From a bacterium (GTDB lineage Bacteria > JAJVIF01 > JAGGVT01): a DNA stretch of 27,921 bases. Below are positions 6,699 through 25,620 of the stretch, in pieces. The first letter of the stretch is position 1. Every line of letters begins with the position of its first letter. The stretch is taken from the NCBI GenBank assembly GCA_021157815.1, contig JAGGVT010000180.1, positions 1 to 27,921 on the forward strand, written 5' to 3'. The translations under genes and the position numbers were made by a program. The notes under the pieces are model-generated. The model saw only the letters and a program-made list of their open reading frames with translations, did no database searches and was not told where the DNA came from.

Positions 6699-7382
6699 TT
6701 AAGGTATCTTAAAACCAGTCTTTAAATCACTGTTTTCCATGCAAACCATCAATCCATTCAAAAGCACGGCCCTGCCTAAAGGTACAACATCAGCGTACTT
6801 TTCAATTGTTTTCATGAAACATTTGTTTTCAACAAGTCCCCCTGACAGGTAAAAACGCTCCCGACCGTCAACGAGCCGATAAACATTACGGGCTACTCCA
6901 TGAACGAATCTCGCTACCGCTTTATCCACTGAGACTCCATCAATTATCAAATCAAACGCACGTTCTATACCGAATACTCCGCACGTTACATTTATATAAT
7001 CATCCTCAGTATCGAGTGAATTGAAATCGATATCGAAATACCGTCCGATTATCTCAAGTGTAAATCCGGTATTTGCTCCACAAGCGGTGTTCCAATCGAG
7101 TCTTAACGGTTTGCCATCTTTAAATTCCACAAGTTTGGTATCACGCCCTCCAACATCGACCACACAAAACGTATCTGATTTAAGAATATTTTGCGTTCCA
7201 CGCGCGAGACAGACAAGTTCGTTCTTGTAATAGTCAGATTTCATTCTGCCTAGATGTCCGGTTGCGCCATCGAATTTCATCTGGGATACACGCAGAAGAT
7301 CCTTTGTCTGGATGATTTCAAGCTCATCAGATTCCGTATCGAGGATTTTTGTATATGTCGTACCGCAATCAGCTATTTTCAT
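6699..7382 (-). CDS. BadF/BadG/BcrA-HgdC family ATPase (2-hydroxyacyl-CoA dehydratase activator-like)
   Basis: A 227-residue member of the ASKHA ATPase superfamily. Visible motifs are the phosphate-1 loop DCGTTYTK (5-12), the phosphate-2 loop VVDVGGRDTK (74-83, matching DIGGQD in HgdC) and the adenosine loop LSGGLVEN. In HgdC a [4Fe-4S] cluster sits between two subunits, held by two cysteines in KCAAGTGRF and TCTVFAESE. The equivalents here are Cys101 (ACGANTGF) and Cys134 (TCGVFGIE), so the iron-sulfur electron-transfer role appears retained. It would use ATP hydrolysis to push a low-potential electron onto a partner enzyme. The gene follows 7401-8147 by 18 bases, so the two are probably co-transcribed. 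It is shorter than typical activators (about 255-270 aa). The substrate system is unknown. Confidence 0.85.
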   Translation of the reverse strand: MKIADCGTTYTKILDTESDELEIIQTKDLLRVSQMKFDGATGHLGRMKSDYYKNELVCLARGTQNILKSDTFCVVDVGGRDTKLVEFKDGKPLRLDWNTACGANTGFTLEIIGRYFDIDFNSLDTEDDYINVTCGVFGIERAFDLIIDGVSVDKAVARFVHGVARNVYRLVDGRERFYLSGGLVENKCFMKTIEKYADVVPLGRAVLLNGLMVCMENSDLKTGFKIP

Positions 7383-7400
7383 AAATACTCTATCTCGCTA

Positions 7401-8147
7401 TTATATGTTTAGCTCAAGAAAAGCCTCTATTCTCGCTTGAATTCCCATTCCGATTTTCCCATCAGCATCGATATACAACCCGCCATACTTATCCGCCAGA
7501 TGCTTCGCGAGTTGCGATTTGGCACAGAAACTTTGCGTATAAAAAACAGTTGGAATATCCGGGACCACAAAACACTCCAAGTCTATATCAGCAGGCCTGG
7601 ATGCCTCCACGGTTCGCGTCCAGCCGTAAACGTGCGTTGAATCAGGAAAGAGGCGCAATAGATTAAAATCGTTTGGTGGCACGCCCCAGAATCCATGCGT
7701 TGGTTTAACCTGCATGAATGTTTCAGTTGAATCAATCAAAACCGTATCCATGATCTTTTCCACTTTCTCAACAAGCGGAATGGAACTGGTTGATATTGGA
7801 ACATCTACCTTTTCAGGATTTTGGCAACTTAAAATATCATCATTTTTCGATTCAACAACATCAAATCCCATCTTTTGAAGAATGTAAGATGCGTAGCGTC
7901 CGCCCTCGCATTTATCAGCCCCGACAGATGCGACAATAATTCTCATGTTCTCTTTTAAGCTAAACGCGTTGTCGATAATATTTCTAATGATTTTGCAATA
8001 CGCTCTGGGCATAATCCCGCTGTCAGGTTTGCCATAATCAATATCCAAATCCACCCATTCACATTCGGGAAACCGTTGCCGAATCTCCCCTGTCACCTCT
8101 TTTTTAGGGCAACCGTAAAATCCTATCTTTCCTTGTGAATTATTCAT
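7401..8147 (-). CDS. Unrecognised cysteine-containing protein paired with the activase
   Basis: A 248-residue soluble protein with no signal peptide or membrane segment. It starts at ATG 8147 behind AGAGG five bases upstream. Seven cysteines are present, several in potentially ligand-like settings: FYGCPKKE, RAYCKII, ADKCEGGRY, ILSCQNP and QSFCAKSQ. The N-terminal half has alternating strand/helix character (RIIVASVGADKCEGGRY) faintly reminiscent of the HgdB/DUF2229-type iron-sulfur partners of BadF activases. It is much smaller than HgdB (about 380 aa), and I cannot assign it to that family. Co-directional placement 18 bases upstream of the activase suggests it is the activase's electron acceptor or a subunit. 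Treat the function as unknown. Confidence 0.75.
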   Translation of the reverse strand: MNNSQGKIGFYGCPKKEVTGEIRQRFPECEWVDLDIDYGKPDSGIMPRAYCKIIRNIIDNAFSLKENMRIIVASVGADKCEGGRYASYILQKMGFDVVESKNDDILSCQNPEKVDVPISTSSIPLVEKVEKIMDTVLIDSTETFMQVKPTHGFWGVPPNDFNLLRLFPDSTHVYGWTRTVEASRPADIDLECFVVPDIPTVFYTQSFCAKSQLAKHLADKYGGLYIDADGKIGMGIQARIEAFLELNI

Positions 8148-9141: not shown

Positions 9142-9325
9142 CAATTGTAACCCGGCGTCCCTTCGCCGGGGTTTTCCTGCCAAATCGCAATTGTAACCCG
9201 GCGTCCCTTCGCCGGGGTTTTCTTGGCAAATCACAATTGTAACCCGGCGTCCCTTCGCCAGGGTTTTCCTGCCAAATAGCAATTGTAACCCGGCGTCCCT
9301 TCGCCGGGGCTTTCCCAAGAAATCT
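9142..9325. repeat. Tandem array of four 46-bp units, each with a terminator-like hairpin
   Basis: Units begin with caattgtaacccgg at 9142, 9188, 9234 and 9280, giving an exact 46-base period. Each holds cccggcg-tccctt-cgccggg followed by gtttt or ctttc; the first stem is 9151-9157 with 9164-9170. Unit 3 has an uncompensated mismatch (cgccagg). The array fills the gap between convergent genes and runs into the stop codon of the minus-strand gene, so it may terminate transcription. A related hairpin on the opposite strand is at 19532-19551. Confidence 0.9.
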
Positions 9326-13101: not shown

Positions 13102-14649
13102 TTATATGTTCGATGTTTTTCCTTGAGGCTTAATAGAAATAAGATATGAAGCGATTATTCCTGAAGCGGCATATATGGAAAACATTAACCGCATGTTATA
13201 TATCGCGTCAGTATTCAGGAAAATAACCAGCGAAAGCAGGCAGAAAGCCAGATTTGCACTGGCAATCTGATGATATTCAACCGGAATATTTTTGGTTTGT
13301 AAAACTCGTATCATGAGCAGAACAATATGTGCTATTATCGCCAAACCAAAAAAAAGCCCGACTACACCAAACCTGAAAACCAAACTAAGATATGATGATT
13401 CAAAAGGATTCTTAAACTTCTCCTCTTCCGACAAGTAATAACTCTGTTCATGAAGAATACTCTTTGATGGGCCAAACCCAAGTATTGGCGACTCTATCAG
13501 TTTAGGCATCATATACATAACAGGTGCCATTCTACCAACACTTGTCTCATCCAATACCTCTTCCATTCTTACATTAGCGCCATATCTGGCAATATTCATC
13601 ACGCTGTCCTGAACGGATTTCAAGCGCTGCATCATGAAAGTTTCACCAATAAAAGGCATTGAAATAATCGAGATAACAACCAGCGCGGTTACCGACACAA
13701 CGGTTCCTATTATTTTCTTCGATGTTTTAACGAAAAATACTGCGGGGAATATTAGAATCAGCATAACGAAAACGATAAAAGCGCCCTTGGAACCAGTCAT
13801 AAACACAGCAACAACAGCTAACATGAAAATGATTATGGTTGGAATTCGTCTTATCGCATTTTCGGAAAACAGCTTTGCCATTAGGTAGGAGCATAAGCAA
13901 ATCAGGAATATTCCAAAGCTTCCAGCTGAGTAGTACGTTGAAAAAACCCGTCTGGCATCAGGTTTCATCAGCTCTATCAGATGATGTTTCTCTGTCCAGA
14001 ATGAAAATACCGGCTCGTTGATACCGGCGAAATTGAAATACTGCACATATCCAATAATAATCGTGGCAAGCCCGCCATAAATAATTGGCGCGATAAAATA
14101 CCGTTTGACTTCATCCGCACGCCAATCCATCTGATAGAAAAGATTGAAAGTAAGAAAATAAAACACAGGTTCCTTGATTATCAGTATATCTCTGACATTA
14201 AATGGCACTCCCTTTGTGGCATAACCATATATCATGGATAGCAGAATTGACCCTATAATAGCTAATATCCAGATATTCGCCCTCGCGCTGCGCCATTTGA
14301 AATCACGGTATTTCAACGCGTAATAGTTCCCAACAATCAGAATCAGAAGCGGCACTGTAAATTCAATCACGAGTCCTATATCTCCAAGCTTGTAGAACAA
14401 ATGAGGCATGAAGATATATAACAGAATTGAAATCACAGCAAGCCGTTTGGGATAAACACTCGCGAAAGAATCATCATTGGAAATCGGTGATTTCAGGTAG
14501 TTATGAACAAGGATGGCAATTATTGCTAATATGGAAAAAACAATGCCAAAATCGGGCCATTTTGATGACAACGCTCCAAGGATTAAAAGCAGCACCCCAA
14601 TCCAGAGAAATCCGATAAATGACAAATTATATTTCAGGCTCTTATTCAT
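13102..14649 (-). CDS. O-antigen ligase / polymerase family membrane protein (Wzy/WaaL type)
   Basis: A 515-residue integral membrane protein with about 11-12 hydrophobic segments. A large loop lies between later helices, as in the Wzy_C/O-antigen ligase family. Family-typical features are MTGSKGAFIVFV after a hydrophobic helix and the loop segment SPILGFGPSKSI, matching the P-x-x-G-x-G pattern. Members either polymerise repeat units or join glycan to lipid or protein on the outer face of the inner membrane; sequence alone does not tell which. The start ATG overlaps the stop of the upstream glycosyltransferase (ATGA), indicating coupled translation. The 893-aa lipoprotein lies 89 bases downstream with its own Shine-Dalgarno and may be co-transcribed. 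Confidence 0.85.
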   Translation of the reverse strand: MNKSLKYNLSFIGFLWIGVLLLILGALSSKWPDFGIVFSILAIIAILVHNYLKSPISNDDSFASVYPKRLAVISILLYIFMPHLFYKLGDIGLVIEFTVPLLILIVGNYYALKYRDFKWRSARANIWILAIIGSILLSMIYGYATKGVPFNVRDILIIKEPVFYFLTFNLFYQMDWRADEVKRYFIAPIIYGGLATIIIGYVQYFNFAGINEPVFSFWTEKHHLIELMKPDARRVFSTYYSAGSFGIFLICLCSYLMAKLFSENAIRRIPTIIIFMLAVVAVFMTGSKGAFIVFVMLILIFPAVFFVKTSKKIIGTVVSVTALVVISIISMPFIGETFMMQRLKSVQDSVMNIARYGANVRMEEVLDETSVGRMAPVMYMMPKLIESPILGFGPSKSILHEQSYYLSEEEKFKNPFESSYLSLVFRFGVVGLFFGLAIIAHIVLLMIRVLQTKNIPVEYHQIASANLAFCLLSLVIFLNTDAIYNMRLMFSIYAASGIIASYLISIKPQGKTSNI

Positions 14650-16679: not shown

Positions 16680-16746
16680 ATTCTGAATTTGATTCAGAAT
16701 CCATTCTTTTCCGTTTGGCAAATGGATTCCGGGTCAAGCCCGGAAT
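16680..16746. repeat. Double-hairpin dispersed repeat, second copy
   Basis: Two palindromes, attctgaa/ttcagaat (16680-16687, 16693-16700) and attccggg/cccggaat (16726-16733, 16739-16746), are joined by ccattcttttccg. This is the same architecture and wording as 8168-8222. It occupies part of the 332-base gap 16614-16945 between divergent genes. Confidence 0.85.
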
Positions 16747-16883
16747 GACATTAATACCAATCGTTATGACATTAATCCCAACCGGAATGACATTAATCCC
16801 AACCGGAATGACATTAATACTAACCGGAATGACATTAATTCCAACCGGAATGACATTAATCCCAACCGGAATGACATTAAAAT
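16744..16883. repeat. 21-bp tandem repeat, seven units, growing from the dispersed repeat
   Basis: The word aatgacattaat recurs every 21 bases from 16744 to 16870 (starts at 16744, 16765, 16786, 16807, 16828, 16849 and 16870), with unit consensus aatgacattaatcccaaccgg. The first unit is the tail of the double-hairpin element, so the array seems to have expanded from it. Because 21 is divisible by three, both strands show accidental open frames; I do not call them genes. Confidence 0.9.
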
Positions 16884-16945: not shown

Positions 16946-17974
16946 ATGAATCTTATTGATGATTTGAAATCAGGGAAATATCCGGTTATTGCAGCGCCGC
17001 TTGCGGGTTATGTTGACCCGCCGTTAGTCTCTATTCTTCTTGAACTCGGTGCTCAATATATGATATATCCGTTCATTTCATCAGAGGGATTAATCAAACG
17101 CAGCATTTACCGTAATCAGGTTGCCGGAAAGCTGAAAGCATGGCGCGAAACAATGCACGATGGCTGGAATCACTTTCAGTTATTCGGACGAGACCAGTCA
17201 ATTATGGCTGAAGCCGCAATCATTCTTGAAAAGGAAGAGAACGCTGACGCAATTGATTTAAACATGGGTTGCAGTGTTAAAAAGGTCTGGAAAGCTGAAA
17301 GCGGAAGCAGCCTTCTAAAAACACCTGAAATAGCTTTAAATATAGTTGAATCAGTTATCGAAGCTGTGGATATCCCTGTAACTTTGAAAACGCGCACCGG
17401 ATGGTCTCGCGAAGACGAAAACGGTTTTTGGCTCATAAGAGAATCCGCGAAACTTGGCATTGCCGCTGTTACTCTTCATCCGCGTCGAGGAAAGGATCAA
17501 TGGAATTCTGATGCCATATGGGATGAGATAAAACAAATAGTTTCAGAGGTTGATGTTCCCATTATTGGAAACGGAGACATAAAATCTCCATCCGATACCG
17601 TTAAAATGCTCAACCAAACCGGCTGCAATGGAGTCATGATTGGAAGGGCATCGACTGGAAATCCGTGGATATTCCCTCGATGCCAATCGCTGATTCATGA
17701 CGGCTTTGATATGCCTGAGCCATCCGCGGTTGAACGAATTGATATATGCATTCTTCACATCGAAAGATTGGTGCAGTTCAGAGGTGAAGATATCGGAATC
17801 AGAGAATCACGAAAGCATGTTGGGCGATACCTTAAAGGATTACCGATAGCATCGAAGATACGAAAGGAAATAGTTCTTTTTAATACGCTTAATGAAGTCA
17901 GAAATAAGCTAATAGAATATAAACATTATCTTCAGCAATTGAATTCGGAGAACACAAATGAAATCATCAAATAA
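16946..17974 (+). CDS. dus: tRNA-dihydrouridine synthase
   Basis: A 342-residue FMN-dependent TIM-barrel enzyme that reduces uridine to dihydrouridine in tRNA. The barrel opens with PVIAAPLAGYVDPPL, an FMN-binding opening strand. The catalytic cysteine is in LNMGCSVKKV (~residue 107), followed by SGSSLL, then LKTRTGW, VPIIGNGDIKS and VMIGRASTGNPWIF, the phosphate-binding end of the barrel. The C-terminal ~80 residues form the helical tRNA-binding domain. The usual HGRTR segment reads HPRRGKDQW, a divergence worth noting but not obviously inactivating. It is closest in style to DusB, though I would not fix the subtype. The gene overlaps gpsA by 17 bases. Confidence 0.92.
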   Translation: MNLIDDLKSGKYPVIAAPLAGYVDPPLVSILLELGAQYMIYPFISSEGLIKRSIYRNQVAGKLKAWRETMHDGWNHFQLFGRDQSIMAEAAIILEKEENADAIDLNMGCSVKKVWKAESGSSLLKTPEIALNIVESVIEAVDIPVTLKTRTGWSREDENGFWLIRESAKLGIAAVTLHPRRGKDQWNSDAIWDEIKQIVSEVDVPIIGNGDIKSPSDTVKMLNQTGCNGVMIGRASTGNPWIFPRCQSLIHDGFDMPEPSAVERIDICILHIERLVQFRGEDIGIRESRKHVGRYLKGLPIASKIRKEIVLFNTLNEVRNKLIEYKHYLQQLNSENTNEIIK

Positions 17975-18965
17975 GAGAATTTCGATACTCGGCGCAGGCA
18001 TGTGGGGACGCACTATCGGATTGCTACTGTCTAGAAAAGATATTGATATATCACTGTGGGACATTCGCGACAATTTGGCAGTTGAGTTGCCCGATTTCTA
18101 TTCAGGCATGAAATCAAACGGGCATGAAATAATAAGCGAACCTGTATTCACAAGCGACCTTTCCGACTCACTGCAAAATGCGGAACTCGTATTTTTCGTT
18201 CTGCCAACCAGCGCTGTTAGTCCGGTTGCCAAACAAATCAAAAACCTAATACCTTCAGAATGTCCAATCATCGTAGCAACCAAGGGCATTGAGGAATCGG
18301 GTGATGATTTCCATCTTATGTCCGGCGTTATTGGTGAAGAACTTGGCGATAATCATCCTGTCGGAATTTTAAGCGGACCTAATTTATCACTCGAAATTCA
18401 AGCAAGGCATCCAGCAGTCAGCCTGATAGCATCAGCTGATAATTCTCTGGTTGAACTGGCAATGAGCCTGCTGGCATCTGATAATTTCAGAGTTTATGGT
18501 TCCCGCGATGTTATCGGTGTTCAAATTGGAGGCGCTGTGAAAAATGTAATCGCTCTTGCCGCTGGAATGGTCGATGAACTCGGATATGAGCACAACACAA
18601 AAGCCGCGCTTCTCACAAGAGGACTGGTTGAAATTACTCGCATGGGTGAAAAAATGGGAGGACAATCAAAGACATTCACCGGAATAAGCGGTTTGGGTGA
18701 TTTGATATGCACAGCGTCAAGCCCGACATCCCGCAACTATCGCGCCGGAAGAATGTTCGGAAAAGGCATGAAACGTGAGGAAATAGAAATTGAAATCGGC
18801 CAGGTTATAGAGGGAATACAAAATGCCAGAACTGTGAACAGAATGTCCGATAAGCTTGATGTCGAAATGCCGATATCTAAAGGTGTGTACAATATAGTCT
18901 GGGAGGGAAGAAATCCTCTGGACGCCATCAAGGAACTTATGACAAGGGAACTTAGATTTGAATGA
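17958..18965 (+). CDS. gpsA: Glycerol-3-phosphate dehydrogenase [NAD(P)+]
   Basis: 335 residues, standard family length. It reduces dihydroxyacetone phosphate to sn-glycerol 3-phosphate, the backbone of phospholipids. The NAD(P)-binding loop GAGMWGRTIG is at 12-21, with VATKGIEE near 110 and LSGPNLSLEI near 140. The catalytic lysine segment GGAVKNVIALAAGM follows near 195, then NTKAALLTRGL and FTGISGLGDLICT with SRNYRAG, which together are diagnostic. The ATG overlaps the end of dus by 17 bases and exbD starts 21 bases downstream, so the three are likely one operon. The linkage is probably housekeeping and not functional. Confidence 0.96.
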   Translation: MKSSNKRISILGAGMWGRTIGLLLSRKDIDISLWDIRDNLAVELPDFYSGMKSNGHEIISEPVFTSDLSDSLQNAELVFFVLPTSAVSPVAKQIKNLIPSECPIIVATKGIEESGDDFHLMSGVIGEELGDNHPVGILSGPNLSLEIQARHPAVSLIASADNSLVELAMSLLASDNFRVYGSRDVIGVQIGGAVKNVIALAAGMVDELGYEHNTKAALLTRGLVEITRMGEKMGGQSKTFTGISGLGDLICTASSPTSRNYRAGRMFGKGMKREEIEIEIGQVIEGIQNARTVNRMSDKLDVEMPISKGVYNIVWEGRNPLDAIKELMTRELRFE

Positions 18966-18986
18966 AATCGCTTTTGAGGATAAATA

Positions 18987-19406
18987 ATGAAAGATGACAT
19001 GAAACTTGTTAGCGAAATTAATATCACACCACTAACTGATGTCATGCTGGTTCTTTTGATAATTTTCATGATAAGCGCTCCCTTCATTGTGCCACGCGGT
19101 AAAGAGGTTCATCTGCCCAAGGTAAAGGAATTCAAAACGCTAAAAAGTGAAAATAATCTTCTTTTAATCAACAATGACGGCGCAATGGAACTTAACGGTG
19201 TCGCTGTTAACGCCGGTGAATTTCAAATGAGCCTTGAGAATATCGTTGACGCATCCACCGAACCGGTCAACCTCTTTATTCGCGGCGATGAGAATGTTGG
19301 ATACGGCATTATCGTAAATGCGATGGATATAGCGAAAATGGCTGGCGTTGAGAGAATCAGCCTTGTATCGGAGGTTGAGGAAACGGAGGTAGAAAAGGAT
19401 GGTTAG
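18987..19406 (+). CDS. exbD: ExbD/TolR family biopolymer transport protein
   Basis: A 139-residue single-pass inner-membrane protein. The N-terminus EINITPLTDVMLVLLIIFM matches ExbD closely, with the proton-path aspartate at Asp18 in the membrane helix, followed by a periplasmic domain ending in VERISLVSE. ExbD works with ExbB in a proton-driven motor that energises TonB or TolA. GAGGA sits six bases before ATG. It follows gpsA by 21 bases. No ExbB/TolQ gene is present anywhere in this window, so the motor partner must be elsewhere. A TonB-type gene lies 200 bases downstream. Its stop codon is the first part of an 8-bp tandem repeat. Confidence 0.92.
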   Translation: MKDDMKLVSEINITPLTDVMLVLLIIFMISAPFIVPRGKEVHLPKVKEFKTLKSENNLLLINNDGAMELNGVAVNAGEFQMSLENIVDASTEPVNLFIRGDENVGYGIIVNAMDIAKMAGVERISLVSEVEETEVEKDG

Positions 19407-19486
19407 TAAGTTAGTAAGTTAGCAGGTTAGTAAGTTAACAGGTTAGTAAGTTAGCAAGTTAGCAGGTTAGTAAGTTAGTAAGTTGG
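19402..19486. repeat. 8-bp tandem repeat (GTTAGTAA/GTTAGCAG), about ten units
   Basis: Ten octamers run from 19402 to 19481: variants gttagtaa, gttagcag, gttaacag and gttagcaa, then gttgg. The first unit supplies the stop codon of exbD. The variants alternate semi-regularly, as if longer composite units were duplicated. Confidence 0.9.
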
Positions 19487-19603
19487 ACTAAAAATGTAGC
19501 CGGGGAAACAGGTGGCTAAATCGCGCGAAACCCCGGTGAAGGGACACCGGGTTACTGGTTAGACGTTGGACTAAAAATGTAGCCCGGAAATCCACTTACC
19601 GGG
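19482..19603. repeat. 20-bp direct repeats and hairpins between exbD and the TonB-like gene
   Basis: gttggactaaaaatgtagcc is repeated exactly at 19482-19501 and 19565-19584. Between the copies is a cccggtg-aaggga-caccggg hairpin (19532-19551), which is the minus-strand form of the 46-bp array hairpin at 9142-9325. After the second copy, cccgg/ccggg (19583-19587, 19599-19603) forms another short stem ending three bases before ATG 19607. Confidence 0.85.
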
Positions 19604-19606
19604 AAA

Positions 19607-20704
19607 ATGCAAGTTGATAAGCTTTTACTGATGAATGATAGTTTTGAAATACTGAACAATTACCCAAAGCGATTGGTTGTTTTTTACGTCATCTCGATAG
19701 TTCTGCATGTCATTTTTATCGGTGGAAATATCGCATATTCATCTATCTTTGTTACCGATGGTGATTTTTCAATTACCACATATCAAGCTGGCAGTGATGA
19801 GAATATCGAGGAAATATCGGGAAATCCGCTTGATTCAGATGAGCAGATAAAATCAACACGCCGTAAGATTTACCGAGTGGATTATTTCAACACTCTCCTG
19901 CTGGAAACACCAATTAAAAACAAGATTGTTCCAGAGCCGACTAAACCTATTGAGCCGGTTATTCCGGACAAGCCGGTTGAACCTTCCAAACCTGAATTGC
20001 ACACTGATGATCCATCTGAAATTGGCGAAGATTCTGAATCCCTTATCGCCGACGAACTTACCGGAAGCATCATGACTTTCGATGAGCTTAAAGAAAGCAG
20101 AAATTCGCTTCACTTTCCACCGTATGTTTTCAACCTGATTCCACATAACGAGAACAACTGGATTTCATTCAAATCGAGATCATGCAGGGGACATGACATT
20201 GTTTATTTCATGGCTGACATTTCAAAAAAGGATGGTTTTGAGGAATATTTCGAATGGGCGATATTCTGGGATTCTATTTTGTCCATGCCGGGGGTAAAGG
20301 ATCCCCCCACTCCTATCGGCATAGCTCAGATAATCGAGGATCCCTATTTTCTCACACCTCAGCTGGCATCTGATGCCATGAAACGTCGAATTGAAAAACT
20401 TGAATATAGTAAACCCTTAAATAGAAACTACAATTTCATTGACGTAAATGGGCAGGTTCTTGATGCGCTTGGAATAGAGGAACTTCCCATGCCACAGGTA
20501 TATTTAGTAGATTATCAAGGTTATGTCAGGTTGAAACTAGAGGGCAGAATCCAGGATATTCCGATTGATCAGATAAAAAAGGCGGTTCTTGTCATAAAGG
20601 AATTATGGGACATGAACGAAATTGAATCAGCTTTTGCAACCGCGGCGATAATTTCATATCAGCAGAAAATAATCAATGAGAAGAAAAACGAATTGAAAGA
20701 TTAG
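19607..20704 (+). CDS. TonB-type membrane anchor with C-terminal thioredoxin-like domain
   Basis: 365 residues. One membrane helix (~23-44, LVVFYVISIVLHVIFIGGNIAY) contains S30-x3-H34, the same spacing as the Ser/His pair of the TonB helix that contacts ExbB/ExbD. A Pro/Lys/Glu-rich periplasmic spacer follows (108-128, PEPTKPIEPVIPDKPVEPSK), also TonB-like. The C-terminal ~180 residues are not a TonB beta domain. The segment LGIEELPMPQVYLVDYQG with V-R-L-K-L-E-G-R next looks like the cis-proline end of thioredoxin/TlpA folds, but no CxxC pair is present. It is predicted to be a proton-motor-driven periplasmic arm with an atypical head. The start is uncertain: ATG 19607 abuts a repeat and ATG 19631 is possible. 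Convergent with pspC. Confidence 0.7.
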   Translation: MQVDKLLLMNDSFEILNNYPKRLVVFYVISIVLHVIFIGGNIAYSSIFVTDGDFSITTYQAGSDENIEEISGNPLDSDEQIKSTRRKIYRVDYFNTLLLETPIKNKIVPEPTKPIEPVIPDKPVEPSKPELHTDDPSEIGEDSESLIADELTGSIMTFDELKESRNSLHFPPYVFNLIPHNENNWISFKSRSCRGHDIVYFMADISKKDGFEEYFEWAIFWDSILSMPGVKDPPTPIGIAQIIEDPYFLTPQLASDAMKRRIEKLEYSKPLNRNYNFIDVNGQVLDALGIEELPMPQVYLVDYQGYVRLKLEGRIQDIPIDQIKKAVLVIKELWDMNEIESAFATAAIISYQQKIINEKKNELKD

Positions 20705-21004: not shown

Positions 21005-21280
21005 GTAGCCCGGTTTCTCATTAACCGGAGTAATGCGTAGATATTACCCATGTTTTCCCGGTTAATGAGAAAACTGTATCAGAACTAAAAAACATCTAGT
21101 AATTATCCTGTGAATATCTAACAATTTTGTGCTGCTGTTTGTGCTGCGGGCATCCTGCCTGCATTTTCTAATTTAACTTAAGATTTGAAAAGATGCAGGC
21201 AGGATGCCCGCAGCACAAAATTACTGGTTATTTGCACATTTCAATTAGTTCTTAGACAGTCTCATGAGAAGCCGGGCTAC
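21005..21280. repeat. Nested palindrome cluster with GTAGCCCGG ends
   Basis: gtagcccggtttctcat (21005-21021) can pair with atgagaagccgggctac (21264-21280), 16 of 17 bases. It can alternatively pair locally through tttctcattaaccgg with ccggttaatgagaaa (21012-21028, 21058-21074). The 27-bp perfect repeat at 21138-21219 lies inside. This cluster fills most of the 487-base gap 20901-21387; the rest holds a G/C-run hairpin near 20978-20997, a GGTACC palindrome and the operon terminator. Confidence 0.8.
21138..21219. repeat. Perfect 27-bp inverted repeat, 28-base AT-rich loop
   Basis: Arms 21138-21164 and 21193-21219 are exact complements with core gctgcgggcatcctgcctgc. A partial extra copy of the end (attttgtgctgctg, 21123-21137) gives an alternative pairing register with the right flank. 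Confidence 0.9.
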
Positions 21281-21331: not shown

Positions 21332-21356
21332 AAAAAACCCCGCATAACGCGGGGTT
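21332..21356 (-). terminator. Intrinsic terminator of the DUF6754 operon
   Basis: On the minus strand AACCCCGC / GCGGGGTT forms an 8-bp stem around a five-base loop, followed by a run of Ts, 32 bases beyond the last stop codon. This is a textbook rho-independent terminator. Confidence 0.9.
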
Positions 21357-21387: not shown

Positions 21388-22143
21388 TCATCCGAGTTGA
21401 CGTCCCATCCACTGTTCAAGGAGGAATTGCATTCGTCCGATTAGCAGTGAAATACGAGCCATAACCGTGTATCCAAATGCTGTACCGAAGGTTACCATCA
21501 GATACAGGATTCCAACCTGAGAGATTTTCCCAATTGCTCCCTTGTGTTCAAGTGAGAAGAAGAAATAAATAAGAACAGAAAGGACGCCAACAATAATAAC
21601 AATGCTTGAGAAAATCGACATAAATGTGTATCCGGTTTGACCGCCCCAGAGAGGGACAAACGTCGACCACATGTGCCGCAATATCATCGCCTGTATCATA
21701 GCCGGGATCGCAAGACCTGCACCACTTGCAACCATGTACGCGAGACCGTACCTGCTAATCCATGAATACTGCCTTGATAATCTGAAAAGCATTGATACTC
21801 CAAACAATGCCGGAATTATAAGGATTTTGTTGTAGGAAAAATCAGTGAACAGCGGATCATACAAGTTTGGTTTCATTACATTGAACCATGTAATGCAGAT
21901 GAAATACCCAACGCTGATGCCAACATAAAGATGTTCCGCGAATTTATAGACAACGTTATCCTTATAAAGGAACGAATACATCGCGAATGTGAGGAGAGCG
22001 GCAATCCAGATTCCAATCCAATGCATTGTCGGATTATAAATCCAGGTTATATGTTGATCAGCAGGAAGGTTGGCATAAATCTCAGTTATTCTATCAGGTA
22101 TTAGCTGTGCGAAAAGTACAGTGTTAGCCATAAAAGTATCCAT
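21388..22143 (-). CDS. Polytopic membrane protein, fourth gene of the DUF6754 operon
   Basis: 251 residues with about seven hydrophobic segments, for example WIGIWIAALLTFAMYSFLY, VGISVGYFICITWFN and IVIIVGVLSVLIYFFF. No enzyme motif was recognised. The start ATG 22143 lies one base after the stop of the preceding gene and is served by AGGAGG inside that gene's last codons, so translation is coupled. It is expected to be part of the same membrane complex as the other three genes. The intrinsic terminator follows directly. The function is unknown. Confidence 0.85.
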   Translation of the reverse strand: MDTFMANTVLFAQLIPDRITEIYANLPADQHITWIYNPTMHWIGIWIAALLTFAMYSFLYKDNVVYKFAEHLYVGISVGYFICITWFNVMKPNLYDPLFTDFSYNKILIIPALFGVSMLFRLSRQYSWISRYGLAYMVASGAGLAIPAMIQAMILRHMWSTFVPLWGGQTGYTFMSIFSSIVIIVGVLSVLIYFFFSLEHKGAIGKISQVGILYLMVTFGTAFGYTVMARISLLIGRMQFLLEQWMGRQLG

Positions 22144-22144
22144 C

Positions 22145-22996
22145 TTACACTTCCTCCTCTTTTTTTATTCGACGTTGCATAAAGAAGAGGATATTCGTAA
22201 CGATAACGATGATAACTGTCATAAGATGCACAATGGACTGGGCATCCATACCCATCGTAGCAGCGCCGGGCTGTTTTGTGTAACCGGCATCTGTAATCAT
22301 TTTCTCATATTCCGCAGCGCCTTTAAGTCCGCCAAGCATGCCGTCAAGCTGTCCCGTATTGAGGTATGGATAATACTGAGTCGCGCTAACTGCGGTACAA
22401 CCGGCGCCCATCGGGAATTTGTATCTTTCCTTGCCGTAGGCAATCCAGACTTCCACGCTTGCACCAGCAGCCAGGTCCACCATAAAATCATAATCGTTCA
22501 GTTTATCCACATTTTCGAAAATCGGCATTTCACCAGTCGAATTACCATTCGCATCCTTTGGGAATGTGTTTTTAATACTTTCCCCCATTGTAAGAATAAC
22601 GATGGCAAATCCGGCTTTATATCCCAGGAAAACATAATCCTCTCCACTTACAGCCCCGAATTCCTCGGCAATAGTTTTTGTCGCTTTCTCGGCAAGTCCC
22701 ATCCCTGAGGGCCAGAGAGTCAATAATGTAATCTTTATTTTCTTATAGAAACAATGTCTCAAAAGAGCCAGTGTCATTGGATAAAGTTCCGGTTTGGATG
22801 CCGGGTCAAAGTCCATTGCAATAAGAATATTTCCCCCTTCGGGAATGGCGTCGACTTTATCAAAAATTGCCTGCGCAGGTGGTGTAATCTTTATAGGCAT
22901 TCCCATTGGTTTGAGAAGTGGAATGACAACAGCAAGAAGAACCAGCAGGAAAATCCAGCGCCTGTCAATCTGCATCATTCGATCATAGAATGACAT
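22145..22996 (-). CDS. Bitopic protein with large extracytoplasmic domain, third gene of the DUF6754 operon
   Basis: 283 residues. Membrane segments lie at ~14-30 (WIFLLVLLAVVIPLLKP) and ~253-272 (SIVHLMTVIIVIVTNILFF). Basic residues flank both on the outer ends of the protein (DRR, RRIKK), so by the positive-inside rule the ~220-residue middle faces outward. That middle has Rossmann-like alternation: GNILIAMDFDPASKPELYP, then KIKITLLTLWPSGM, FAIVILTMGES and YDFMVDLAAGASVEVWIAY. The start codon directly follows the previous stop with no gap. Asp/Glu-rich loops could bind a metal or ligand, but no known catalytic motif is seen. The function is unknown; it is always read here as part of the four-gene unit. 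Confidence 0.85.
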   Translation of the reverse strand: MSFYDRMMQIDRRWIFLLVLLAVVIPLLKPMGMPIKITPPAQAIFDKVDAIPEGGNILIAMDFDPASKPELYPMTLALLRHCFYKKIKITLLTLWPSGMGLAEKATKTIAEEFGAVSGEDYVFLGYKAGFAIVILTMGESIKNTFPKDANGNSTGEMPIFENVDKLNDYDFMVDLAAGASVEVWIAYGKERYKFPMGAGCTAVSATQYYPYLNTGQLDGMLGGLKGAAEYEKMITDAGYTKQPGAATMGMDAQSIVHLMTVIIVIVTNILFFMQRRIKKEEEV

Positions 22997-23641
22997 TTAA
23001 TCACCACCTCCACCCATGTAGGTTCGTTCTATGCCGAAGATTATTCTCAATGCCGTTGCGATTGCCGCAAGGCCGACACCAAGCAGAATTCCTCTTTGTG
23101 CCGCCATTGATGGTGTTGCCAGCAGCCATTCCGTAAACACTGGAAGCCCTTTTCCGAACATAACCTCTCCGATTGGCACTCGTCCAAGCATAACCACAAT
23201 TGCTGTAACAAGAAGGATTGTCGCTTCCTTTGTTCTTGCGCGGAATGCTCGATACGCAGCCGATACGATGTAGAACGCAAGAATGGAGAACATCGTTGAC
23301 TGCATAGGCACCTGCATATTGTCAAACAACCACATCAGCGGTCCGCCAGCTTCCATGTGTTTGGAATCAATCAAACCAGCACCGACCATTGTGAACATTG
23401 CGATATAAACAACAACGCTGAAACCCCACTGTGGCGTCTTTCTTTTAATCTTCTGTGCATGATGATTAAGCAGTGAGTAGATTCCCACAATCAGCGTAAA
23501 ACCGATAATTATAAGAGACCAAAGGTTTATAGTACGATATATTTCCTGAACGTCATGGTTTGGCAGATAGTTCTGCAGCCACATGAACATACCAATAAAG
23601 AACGCTAGTGTGATTGGGATTTGTTTCTTTACCAGATTCAA
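22997..23641 (-). CDS. Polytopic membrane protein, second gene of the DUF6754 operon
   Basis: 214 residues with about six hydrophobic segments, including LWSLIIIGFTLIVGIYSLL and ILLVTAIVVMLGRVP, and a Gly-rich C-terminus (ERTYMGGGGD). The start is TTG at 23641: GGAGG lies six bases upstream and overlaps the stop of the first gene, and no ATG fits. No known family motif was recognised. Operon position and size suggest a structural subunit or channel-like partner of the DUF6754 protein. Confidence 0.85.
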   Translation of the reverse strand: MNLVKKQIPITLAFFIGMFMWLQNYLPNHDVQEIYRTINLWSLIIIGFTLIVGIYSLLNHHAQKIKRKTPQWGFSVVVYIAMFTMVGAGLIDSKHMEAGGPLMWLFDNMQVPMQSTMFSILAFYIVSAAYRAFRARTKEATILLVTAIVVMLGRVPIGEVMFGKGLPVFTEWLLATPSMAAQRGILLGVGLAAIATALRIIFGIERTYMGGGGD

Positions 23642-23652
23642 ATGGAGCCTCC

Positions 23653-25620
23653 TTATTTAGCAGCAAATACATTGCTGATGTGATTTAAGTAAATTGGTAT
23701 ATCAACATATTTCATGCCCAGAATTGTTACCCAAATAACTCCTATAACCAGCATAACCATCAGGAACATCTTGCCTACATCCTGGCCCTTAAGGCTGCCA
23801 AGAAGCAGCGGCTCGCGTGCCAGATACGCACTTGCGGCGTATAGTTCCTCTCCGATTAGCGTATAGTCGCATGTTGTAATAAAGAACGGAAGCTGCGCGA
23901 GTGAGTCAGTTCCCGCGATTTGAATCGCGCCAGTTGATGCGCCTGTTTCAGCAAGAATTAAACTCTCCGCGTAATAGTATCCCATGAATATATTCGTTGC
24001 AGGTTTTTCGCGAACCATGATACCGTCAACCGCAGCAGTGAAACTGAACTGGTCGTCAGTTACAAAGAAAATATTATCAGGATTGTAGGCATCTGGACGG
24101 CCTGCATCCATGTATGCCTCTTTCACAACCTCCTGACATACTGACATAACCACCGGATCACGATTCGGGTTGATAATCTTTGAGTCGTAATCGGCGACTT
24201 TCTTCGCAACCTGCCCCAGTATGTTGATAGCGGCGATTGTTGATACGTTTGATAACGAGTCAAGTCCTGTCAGATAGAGAATAGGTTTTCCCATCTCAGT
24301 TGCTCGCCCGATTGCCTCATCGACAGCATCAAGTCCGGCTATCTTTCTAATGAACAGCTCTTTTCCCCTCTTTGCCTGCGAGATGAACAAGAGAACGATC
24401 ATACAATATAAGAAAGAAATAAAAACATTATTGATTCCGAGTATATCGAATGCATTTGAAGTCGAAACCAGATTCTGAGCAGTGCCGATATACTTAACGT
24501 TTCCGGAATCATCCACTGCTGCCAGTTGGAAATAATGCATCTTTTTGAAATCAGGATATTCCTCAGGCTCTCCATTTGTTTTAAAACGAGGAATTAACGC
24601 AGAAGGAATGATTTGGCCGATATTTTTGGGCAATTCAAGAGTAAGACTTCCATTCTCAAGCGATATCGATTTAATAATTCCATCCCGTCTAAAGCCATCA
24701 ATATCAAGACTAAGATTCACATCTTGAATTTTATCAGGTTCCTTTGCCTGCTCCTTAATGAATTTTTTCTCAGCTATTCTAATCATTCTTGATTTAAATG
24801 AGAATGTAAATTCATAAAGATATTTACCGTCTTCAGCTTTTATAAGTTTTCCGTTTTCCAGTTGATTCTTTTCATAAATTGGAATATTAGGAAACTCTTT
24901 TGAGTACGCATGGAAATCTGCATCAAAACGACTGGGCCAGAAATGAGTTCTGACAGTAGCCAGAGTATCACTCAAAGGTTCGAAATCCTCATAATTGACC
25001 TCGATTTCAGCTTCTTCGTCAGCTTCAATATGACGGATATTCCCATCAATCACATCTTCTGGATTAAGTGTTTGATAGATTCGATAAGTGTAACTTGAAG
25101 TAAAATCGGCTATTGCATCAAGTTTGCCGTTAATCTGCTCCAACTCATTTAACACACCGTCGCGTTTTCTGTTAATTGGCTCCAACTTTTTCAGCAGACC
25201 AGCACGTTTAGGGCTATCTTCTTCTAAAGCATCCAATTGTTTTTCTAGCGACATCATCTTGCTAGTCAGAGGGACCAACCGTTTATCCACTCGTCCTTTC
25301 TCGTTAGTTAGCTTATCCCTTTCAGCAAGAAGTTCCTTTTCCTTGTCGCTAAGAGGCCAAGTTATAAGGAAAACACCACCCTCATCCGATGGAAAGTCCT
25401 TTAATTCAAAAACCGCCGGTAAATCGATTTCAGCGGAAGCGCTCTTTTGTGGCTCCTCCGACTCCTCATTAATTATCTGATCTTGCTGAACCTCTGCTGC
25501 GCCCTCATCAGGCTGTGGATCGCCCGCGTCCTGAGCATAAAGAGGAAGTATGAGAAAACAAGTAAGTGCAATAAATGACGAAGCGATAAATATCGCTTTA
25601 AAATCTCTGAGTTTTGTCAC
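23653..25620 (-). CDS. DUF6754-type membrane protein with exported coiled-coil/beta region
   Basis: 655 residues. A signal-type N-terminus ends near LYA-QD (residue ~30) and an acidic linker follows. A charged coiled coil (~90-170) precedes a beta-rich region (~175-385). A first internal membrane helix lies at ~395-413 (FISFLYCMIVLLFISQ), with basic residues straight after it (AKRGKELFIRK), placing residues ~420-620 in the cytosol. This is the DUF6754-like domain: GKPILYLTGLDSLSNVSTIAA, NPDNIFFVTDDQFSF, IFMGYYYAES and TCDYTLIGEELYAASAY. A final helix is at ~622-640. The start GTG 25620 has GGGAGGT upstream. It is the first gene of the operon and may be a sensor/transducer with domains on both membrane faces. 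The DUF assignment is from memory of the family. Confidence 0.85.
   Translation of the reverse strand: MTKLRDFKAIFIASSFIALTCFLILPLYAQDAGDPQPDEGAAEVQQDQIINEESEEPQKSASAEIDLPAVFELKDFPSDEGGVFLITWPLSDKEKELLAERDKLTNEKGRVDKRLVPLTSKMMSLEKQLDALEEDSPKRAGLLKKLEPINRKRDGVLNELEQINGKLDAIADFTSSYTYRIYQTLNPEDVIDGNIRHIEADEEAEIEVNYEDFEPLSDTLATVRTHFWPSRFDADFHAYSKEFPNIPIYEKNQLENGKLIKAEDGKYLYEFTFSFKSRMIRIAEKKFIKEQAKEPDKIQDVNLSLDIDGFRRDGIIKSISLENGSLTLELPKNIGQIIPSALIPRFKTNGEPEEYPDFKKMHYFQLAAVDDSGNVKYIGTAQNLVSTSNAFDILGINNVFISFLYCMIVLLFISQAKRGKELFIRKIAGLDAVDEAIGRATEMGKPILYLTGLDSLSNVSTIAAINILGQVAKKVADYDSKIINPNRDPVVMSVCQEVVKEAYMDAGRPDAYNPDNIFFVTDDQFSFTAAVDGIMVREKPATNIFMGYYYAESLILAETGASTGAIQIAGTDSLAQLPFFITTCDYTLIGEELYAASAYLAREPLLLGSLKGQDVGKMFLMVMLVIGVIWVTILGMKYVDIPIYLNHISNVFAAK

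Follow-up and report, generated by a model that had tools for sequence, protein, structure and literature searches.

A co-inherited DUF6754 membrane cassette and its ASKHA ATPase partners: a candidate ATP-driven envelope machine in many bacterial phyla

The window analysed here comprises positions 1–27,921 of contig JAGGVT010000180.1 from a bacterial genome assembly (GCA_021157815.1), and our subject is a run of four membrane-protein genes, g1 to g4, at positions 21388–25620 on its minus strand. Our analysis suggests that their products form the inner-membrane module of an ATP-driven envelope machine made up of several proteins, a reading to which we assign a probability of about 0.5. It starts from gene content, gene order, co-occurrence, predicted folds and sidedness by charge, all of which are direct results of the analysis. 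The cassette is inherited as one unit, and in many phyla it is preceded by the genes of an ASKHA ATPase and a putative adaptor.

The profile survey covered 59 genomes, almost every one from a family of its own. In independent searches g1, g2, g3 and g4 were each detected in exactly the same 14 genomes, from 14 families, and their copy numbers match, with three copies of every gene in G010 and G012 and two in G019 and G037; the sole surplus is a weak extra g4-like match in G033 (E 4.7e-8). The order g1-g2-g3-g4 is kept in all 20 DUF6754 loci of the 14 genomes. A wider scan across the genomes of 84,980 species returned at least 577 relatives, and loci were taken from the best 80 of these. They come from Nitrospira, anammox planctomycetes, Methylomirabilis, WOR-3/Stahlbacteria, Latescibacterota, Edwardsbacteria, Eisenbacteria, Zixiibacteriota, Armatimonadota, Fermentibacteraceae and others. 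Complete, ordered cassettes numbered 97 over 98 loci, and the loci lacking one are mostly contig ends or broken frames. An apparent fusion of g2 and g3 (L087) is in fact a frame break in g2, and an odd gene order (L105) is the product of an over-extended reading-frame start. Independent occurrence of the four families, the outcome that an earlier note on this window had set against its own proposal of a common complex, was not observed; the exceptions are three lone g1 genes considered below. What the survey and the loci support is one uncharacterised envelope unit inherited together.

The comparison of DUF6754 gene neighbourhoods across phyla, which the earlier note had recommended, revealed partner genes upstream of the conserved cassette. 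In many phyla the operon reads small protein, MutL/GlmL-like ASKHA ATPase (PF13941; mutL), barrel-sandwich adaptor (bsh) and then g1-g2-g3-g4. All seven genes occur together in Nitrospira, anammox planctomycetes, Methylomirabilis and others, ATPase and adaptor precede the cassette in Latescibacterota as well, and the series mutL-bsh-g1-g2-g3-g4 is consecutive at 35 loci. The small protein (about 125 aa, present in many genomes) lies within 1.2 kb of mutL in 33 of its 35 hits, and a further, eighth protein (about 150 aa) stands upstream in some lineages. The view that the four genes are complete by themselves is not supported, since operon structure and phylogenetic profile place ATPase, adaptor and small protein in the same system. 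Adaptor genes were found in 14 of 14 DUF6754 genomes (weakly in G033) as against 1 of 45 genomes without DUF6754 (p 1.1e-12, a value that ignores shared ancestry). The sole carrier lacking DUF6754, G003, is a relative of 82% completeness whose contig is cut off within bsh. The adaptor was also present in 22 of 23 further DUF6754 genomes, nearly all of them chosen for having no adaptor beside the fetched cassette, which brings the count to 36 of the 37 g1 carriers tested. PF13941 was detected in 13 of the 14 DUF6754 genomes; the other clear matches are in G003, G034 and G053, the last being of the OR-4 type.

Two or three membrane modules are present in many genomes, but usually one adaptor, and at three loci (L110, L142 and L152) tandem modules follow a single mutL-bsh pair. 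In a member of the Fermentibacteraceae one divergent open reading frame of 920 aa (L154, positions 17486–20248) fuses mutL and bsh. Long open frames of about 870–940 codons (G081, G071 and G070) contain further matches to the adaptor profile, several per genome in some lineages, and may be additional fusions of this kind. In the genome of the window, the eighth protein, the small protein, mutL and bsh are together on another contig (C34), mutL adjoining bsh. A second cassette is possible beyond the end of that contig, because it stops about 165 nt after bsh, but the assembly, 90.9% complete, has a single DUF6754 match. A Memo-like gene (PF01875) lies directly downstream of the seven-gene operon at 22 loci (L121, positions 13285–14532, among them); it seems lineage-specific, those inspected being Nitrospirota. 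PADLOC models gave no match to any of the eight components at E 0.01.

The membrane proteins have complementary layouts. The first gene, g1 (23653–25620), begins with GTG and encodes 655 aa comprising a signal peptide, an FN3-like ectodomain with a coiled-coil insertion, a transmembrane helix, a cytosolic Rossmann-like DUF6754 domain and a second transmembrane helix. The family name given in the earlier note proved right, as g1 matches PF20539 with E 7.2e-120 and 399 bits against a curated cut-off of 27 bits. The DUF6754 domain and its flanking helices span 23719–24459; the domain has 53% mean column identity, with conserved E, R, C-D and E-E positions, the Cys-Asp being almost invariant. As read from the sequence, the ectodomain (24472–25413) starts with PSDEGG..W, ends with YFQLAAVDDSGN and is broken by the coiled coil and extra material. 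Among g1 relatives FN3 (PF00041) scores above its cut-off in one (L113, 1e-6) and below it in four others, and the total length of g1 homologues ranges from 258 to 943 aa. The second gene, g2 (22997–23641; 214 aa, TTG start), and the fourth, g4 (21388–22143; 251 aa, ATG start), encode polytopic proteins, g4 with a conserved SFLYKDN..YKFAEH motif. A simple hydropathy count, which varies, gives four helices in each window protein and mostly five to six (g2) or three to five (g4) in homologues; no convincing relation was found between the two. The third gene, g3 (22145–22996; 283 aa, ATG start), encodes a Rossmann-like domain (22268–22888, model residues 37–243) between two transmembrane helices. 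No Pfam or NCBIfam family scored above its cut-off in g2, g3 or g4. Sidedness was judged from lysine plus arginine counts near the helix ends. In 109 g1 homologues they are 4.49 after the first helix and 1.28 before it, which places the DUF6754 domain inside; in 92 g3 homologues the two distal sides have 3.39 and 3.52 and the sides facing the domain 1.67 and 1.57, which places the g3 domain outside. The layouts proposed in the earlier note, namely an exported coiled-coil and beta part with a cytosolic domain in g1, an outward Rossmann-like domain in g3 and polytopic g2 and g4, hold; the inward DUF6754 domain and the outward g3 domain are supported by these counts and by the AlphaFold2 models.

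Both domains were modelled as Rossmann-like by AlphaFold2, with pLDDT 89.6 and pTM 0.80 for the DUF6754 domain of g1 and pLDDT 95.4 and pTM 0.90 for g3. Each model consists of a six-strand alpha/beta domain between two transmembrane helices, with the elements in the same order. The structure searches suggested by the earlier note gave 1ma3 as the nearest fold to the g1 domain (Z 11.3, root-mean-square deviation 3.6, 144 residues aligned) and MT0777 (1kjn) as the nearest to g3 (Z 10.2, 3.6, 140), the latter also being close to g1 (Z 9.7, 3.6, 134). Near to both are CODH epsilon (3cf4; Z 9.2, 3.2, 137 for g1 and Z 9.5, 3.2, 149 for g3) and domain III of transhydrogenase (Z 9.8, 3.4, 142 and Z 8.5, 3.4, 142). 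Many unrelated Rossmann proteins fall within about 2 Z units and none stands out; Foldseek returned no hit at E ≤ 0.001 with either domain. Profile–profile comparison of the two domains detected no sequence homology (probability about 1–2%), so that a likeness of fold, consisting of element order and overlapping nearest folds, is supported and common descent is not. The models thus support a similar Rossmann-like fold on the two membrane faces, the sides being assigned by charge bias. PDB sequence searches with g1, g2, g3, g4, the adaptor and the ATPase gave nothing significant, a plasmid search with g1 gave no match, and among the papers searched none named DUF6754, nor did PF20539 occur in those listed.

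In the machine that we propose, the adaptor would dock the ASKHA ATPase onto the inward DUF6754 domain of g1, and the ATPase, through its ATP cycle, would shift the conformation of a g1-g2-g3-g4 complex. The polytopic g2 and g4 would form a path through the membrane, whereas the outward domain of g3 and the FN3 ectodomain of g1 would handle a substrate or partner outside. Several membrane modules would share one cytosolic energiser and would probably differ in specificity through the variable g1 ectodomain, since many genomes have two or three modules and as a rule a single adaptor. The job of such a machine is most likely transport, or mechanical work of another kind across the membrane. If the proposal is true, six to eight proteins inherited together in many phyla, three of the four membrane proteins having no family model, would constitute an undescribed molecular machine and give a GlmL-type ATPase a new role. 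Its carriers include environmentally central bacteria (Nitrospira, anammox planctomycetes and Methylomirabilis), and the seven-gene operon of the Nitrospira type makes the system testable as one construct.

Several points weigh against this proposal. The physical complex, the coupling to ATP, the direction of the work and the cargo are matters that we infer. The Fisher test for joint presence of g1–g4 (p 7.5e-14) ignores shared ancestry. At three loci on WOR-3/Stahlbacteria contigs (L103, L106 and L130) g1 appears to be truly alone, g2–g4 being undetected beside it. The known relatives of GlmL serve cytosolic B12 enzymes, not membrane machines. The neighbouring genes have no common theme, as 210 Pfam families were found in 125 neighbours and none in more than three proteins; therefore no cargo can be derived from context. 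One genome with three modules (G010, 100% complete) has bsh and no PF13941 match, and another (G078) has membrane modules but no bsh; because of these two cases, the partners may be replaceable. The same two genomes, together with the separation of g1–g4 from mutL and bsh in many WOR-3 genomes as well as in that of the window, would fit an explanation in which g1–g4 form one complex while the link to ATPase and adaptor reflects shared ancestry or operon drift. We consider this very improbable, as the linkage recurs in distant phyla and co-occurrence survives its loss in 22 of 23 genomes.

A transmembrane sensor is another candidate, in which the g1 ectodomain and the g3 domain would sense an outside ligand or the state of the envelope, and DUF6754 would relay this to the ASKHA protein, with the nucleotide state of the latter as the output. 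A highly variable ectodomain joined to a very conserved cytosolic domain, and several modules served by one set of cytosolic partners, are what such a sensor would show. However, conserved polytopic g2 and g4 exceed the needs of a receptor, and the neighbours include no recurrent kinase, cyclase, receiver or regulator; we regard a sensor as unlikely, if still worth serious consideration. Somewhat more doubtful is a membrane-bound enzyme whose Rossmann-like domains in g1 and g3 would bind a cofactor or substrate, the GlmL-like protein and the adaptor reactivating or loading it in the way that GlmL, EutA and DdrA reactivate or load B12 enzymes. The full-length PF13941 match of the ASKHA protein, near GlmL and OR-4 in NCBIfam though below their cut-offs, is consistent with this, as are the cofactor-binding transhydrogenase domain III and CODH epsilon among the nearest folds of both domains, and the almost invariant Cys-Asp and the Glu pairs of DUF6754. 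Yet those fold matches are scattered over unrelated proteins, no B12 or radical enzyme recurs beside the operon, and nucleotide cofactors are scarce on the outer side, where the g3 domain sits. The ATP-driven envelope machine remains our preferred reading.

The four reading frames of the window are separated by 11 (g1/g2), 0 (g2/g3) and 1 nt (g3/g4). A GGAGG-type Shine-Dalgarno stretch can be read upstream of every start; those of g3 and g4 are within the 3′ end of the preceding gene and that of g2 is directly 3′ of the g1 stop. An intrinsic terminator with a 9-bp stem and a T-run follows g4 (21336–21356, minus strand). The coupled operon with a strong terminator described in the earlier note is thus confirmed. 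In the region, terminator-like sites number 14, compared with 4.3 ± 2.1 in shuffled sequences. Close by, at 21138–21219, is a hairpin formed by a 30-nt inverted repeat (TGTGCTGCGGGCATCCTGCCTGCA), one of a dispersed family with 56 matches in the genome (up to three mismatches) against none for the reversed control pattern. Elsewhere in the window, an open reading frame at 583–2412 is built from a 198-nt unit repeated in tandem about 6.6 times (DUF5122 beta-propeller repeats; copies 76% alike), and three more tandem arrays, mostly intergenic, lie at 9142–9315 (46-nt unit), 16740–16880 (21) and 19402–19484 (8/24). At 6699–8147 a BadF/BadG-type ASKHA activator (PF01869), of another ASKHA family than the mutL-like partner, adjoins a 248-aa protein that has no Pfam match and looks like a 2-hydroxyacyl-CoA dehydratase subunit.

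Parts of the system recall known machines. The N-terminus of the adaptor resembles the barrel-sandwich domains of RnfC and NqrA, but only below threshold: neither RnfC_N (PF13375) nor NQRA_N (PF05896) exceeds its cut-off (best 24.8 bits against 25.6, in L031; also 20.6 against 25), the rest of the adaptor is unlike either protein, with a hint only of an RraA-like middle and a KOW-like C-terminus, and no Rnf or Nqr subunit is found among the partners. Proton-translocating transhydrogenase shares a Rossmann-like cytosolic domain beside membrane helices, and its domain III is among the nearest folds; no sequence relation to it was found, and the present set differs in having a second, outward Rossmann-like domain and an ATPase partner. 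The platforms of type IV pili and type II secretion (PilM-N-O-P, GspL) likewise tie a cytosolic ASKHA protein to an inner-membrane assembly. However, no PilM, PilN, PilO or GspL Pfam family was among the component matches, and the ASKHA motifs of the present ATPase are complete, phosphate-1 (DCGSTTTKA), phosphate-2 (DIGGATTD) and adenosine (GSGG) being intact in nearly all full-length members. The closest likeness by family is to GlmL/MutL and OR-4, with which the ATPase shares the core over all 450 positions of PF13941 (match 1–450, E about 1e-121 to 1e-122). By its sequence scores it is nevertheless a branch separate from both, since every NCBIfam GlmL cut-off was missed (GlmL 223 of 475 bits, GlmL-family 156 of 204), as was that of OR-4 (194 of 600), for which the OR-4 protein of G053, used as positive control, reached 687 bits. 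The protein has about 600–640 aa compared with about 450 in the GlmL type, owing to an extra C-terminal part. GlmL-like ASKHA proteins are an ATPase type known for servicing B12 enzymes, whereas here the ATPase goes with the genes of an adaptor and a membrane complex, not with a B12 mutase. We tentatively suggest, as a possibility somewhat short of an even chance, that a GlmL-like ASKHA protein drives interchangeable four-protein membrane modules bearing a similar Rossmann-like fold on either side, which would make this a new class of bacterial envelope machine powered by ATP.

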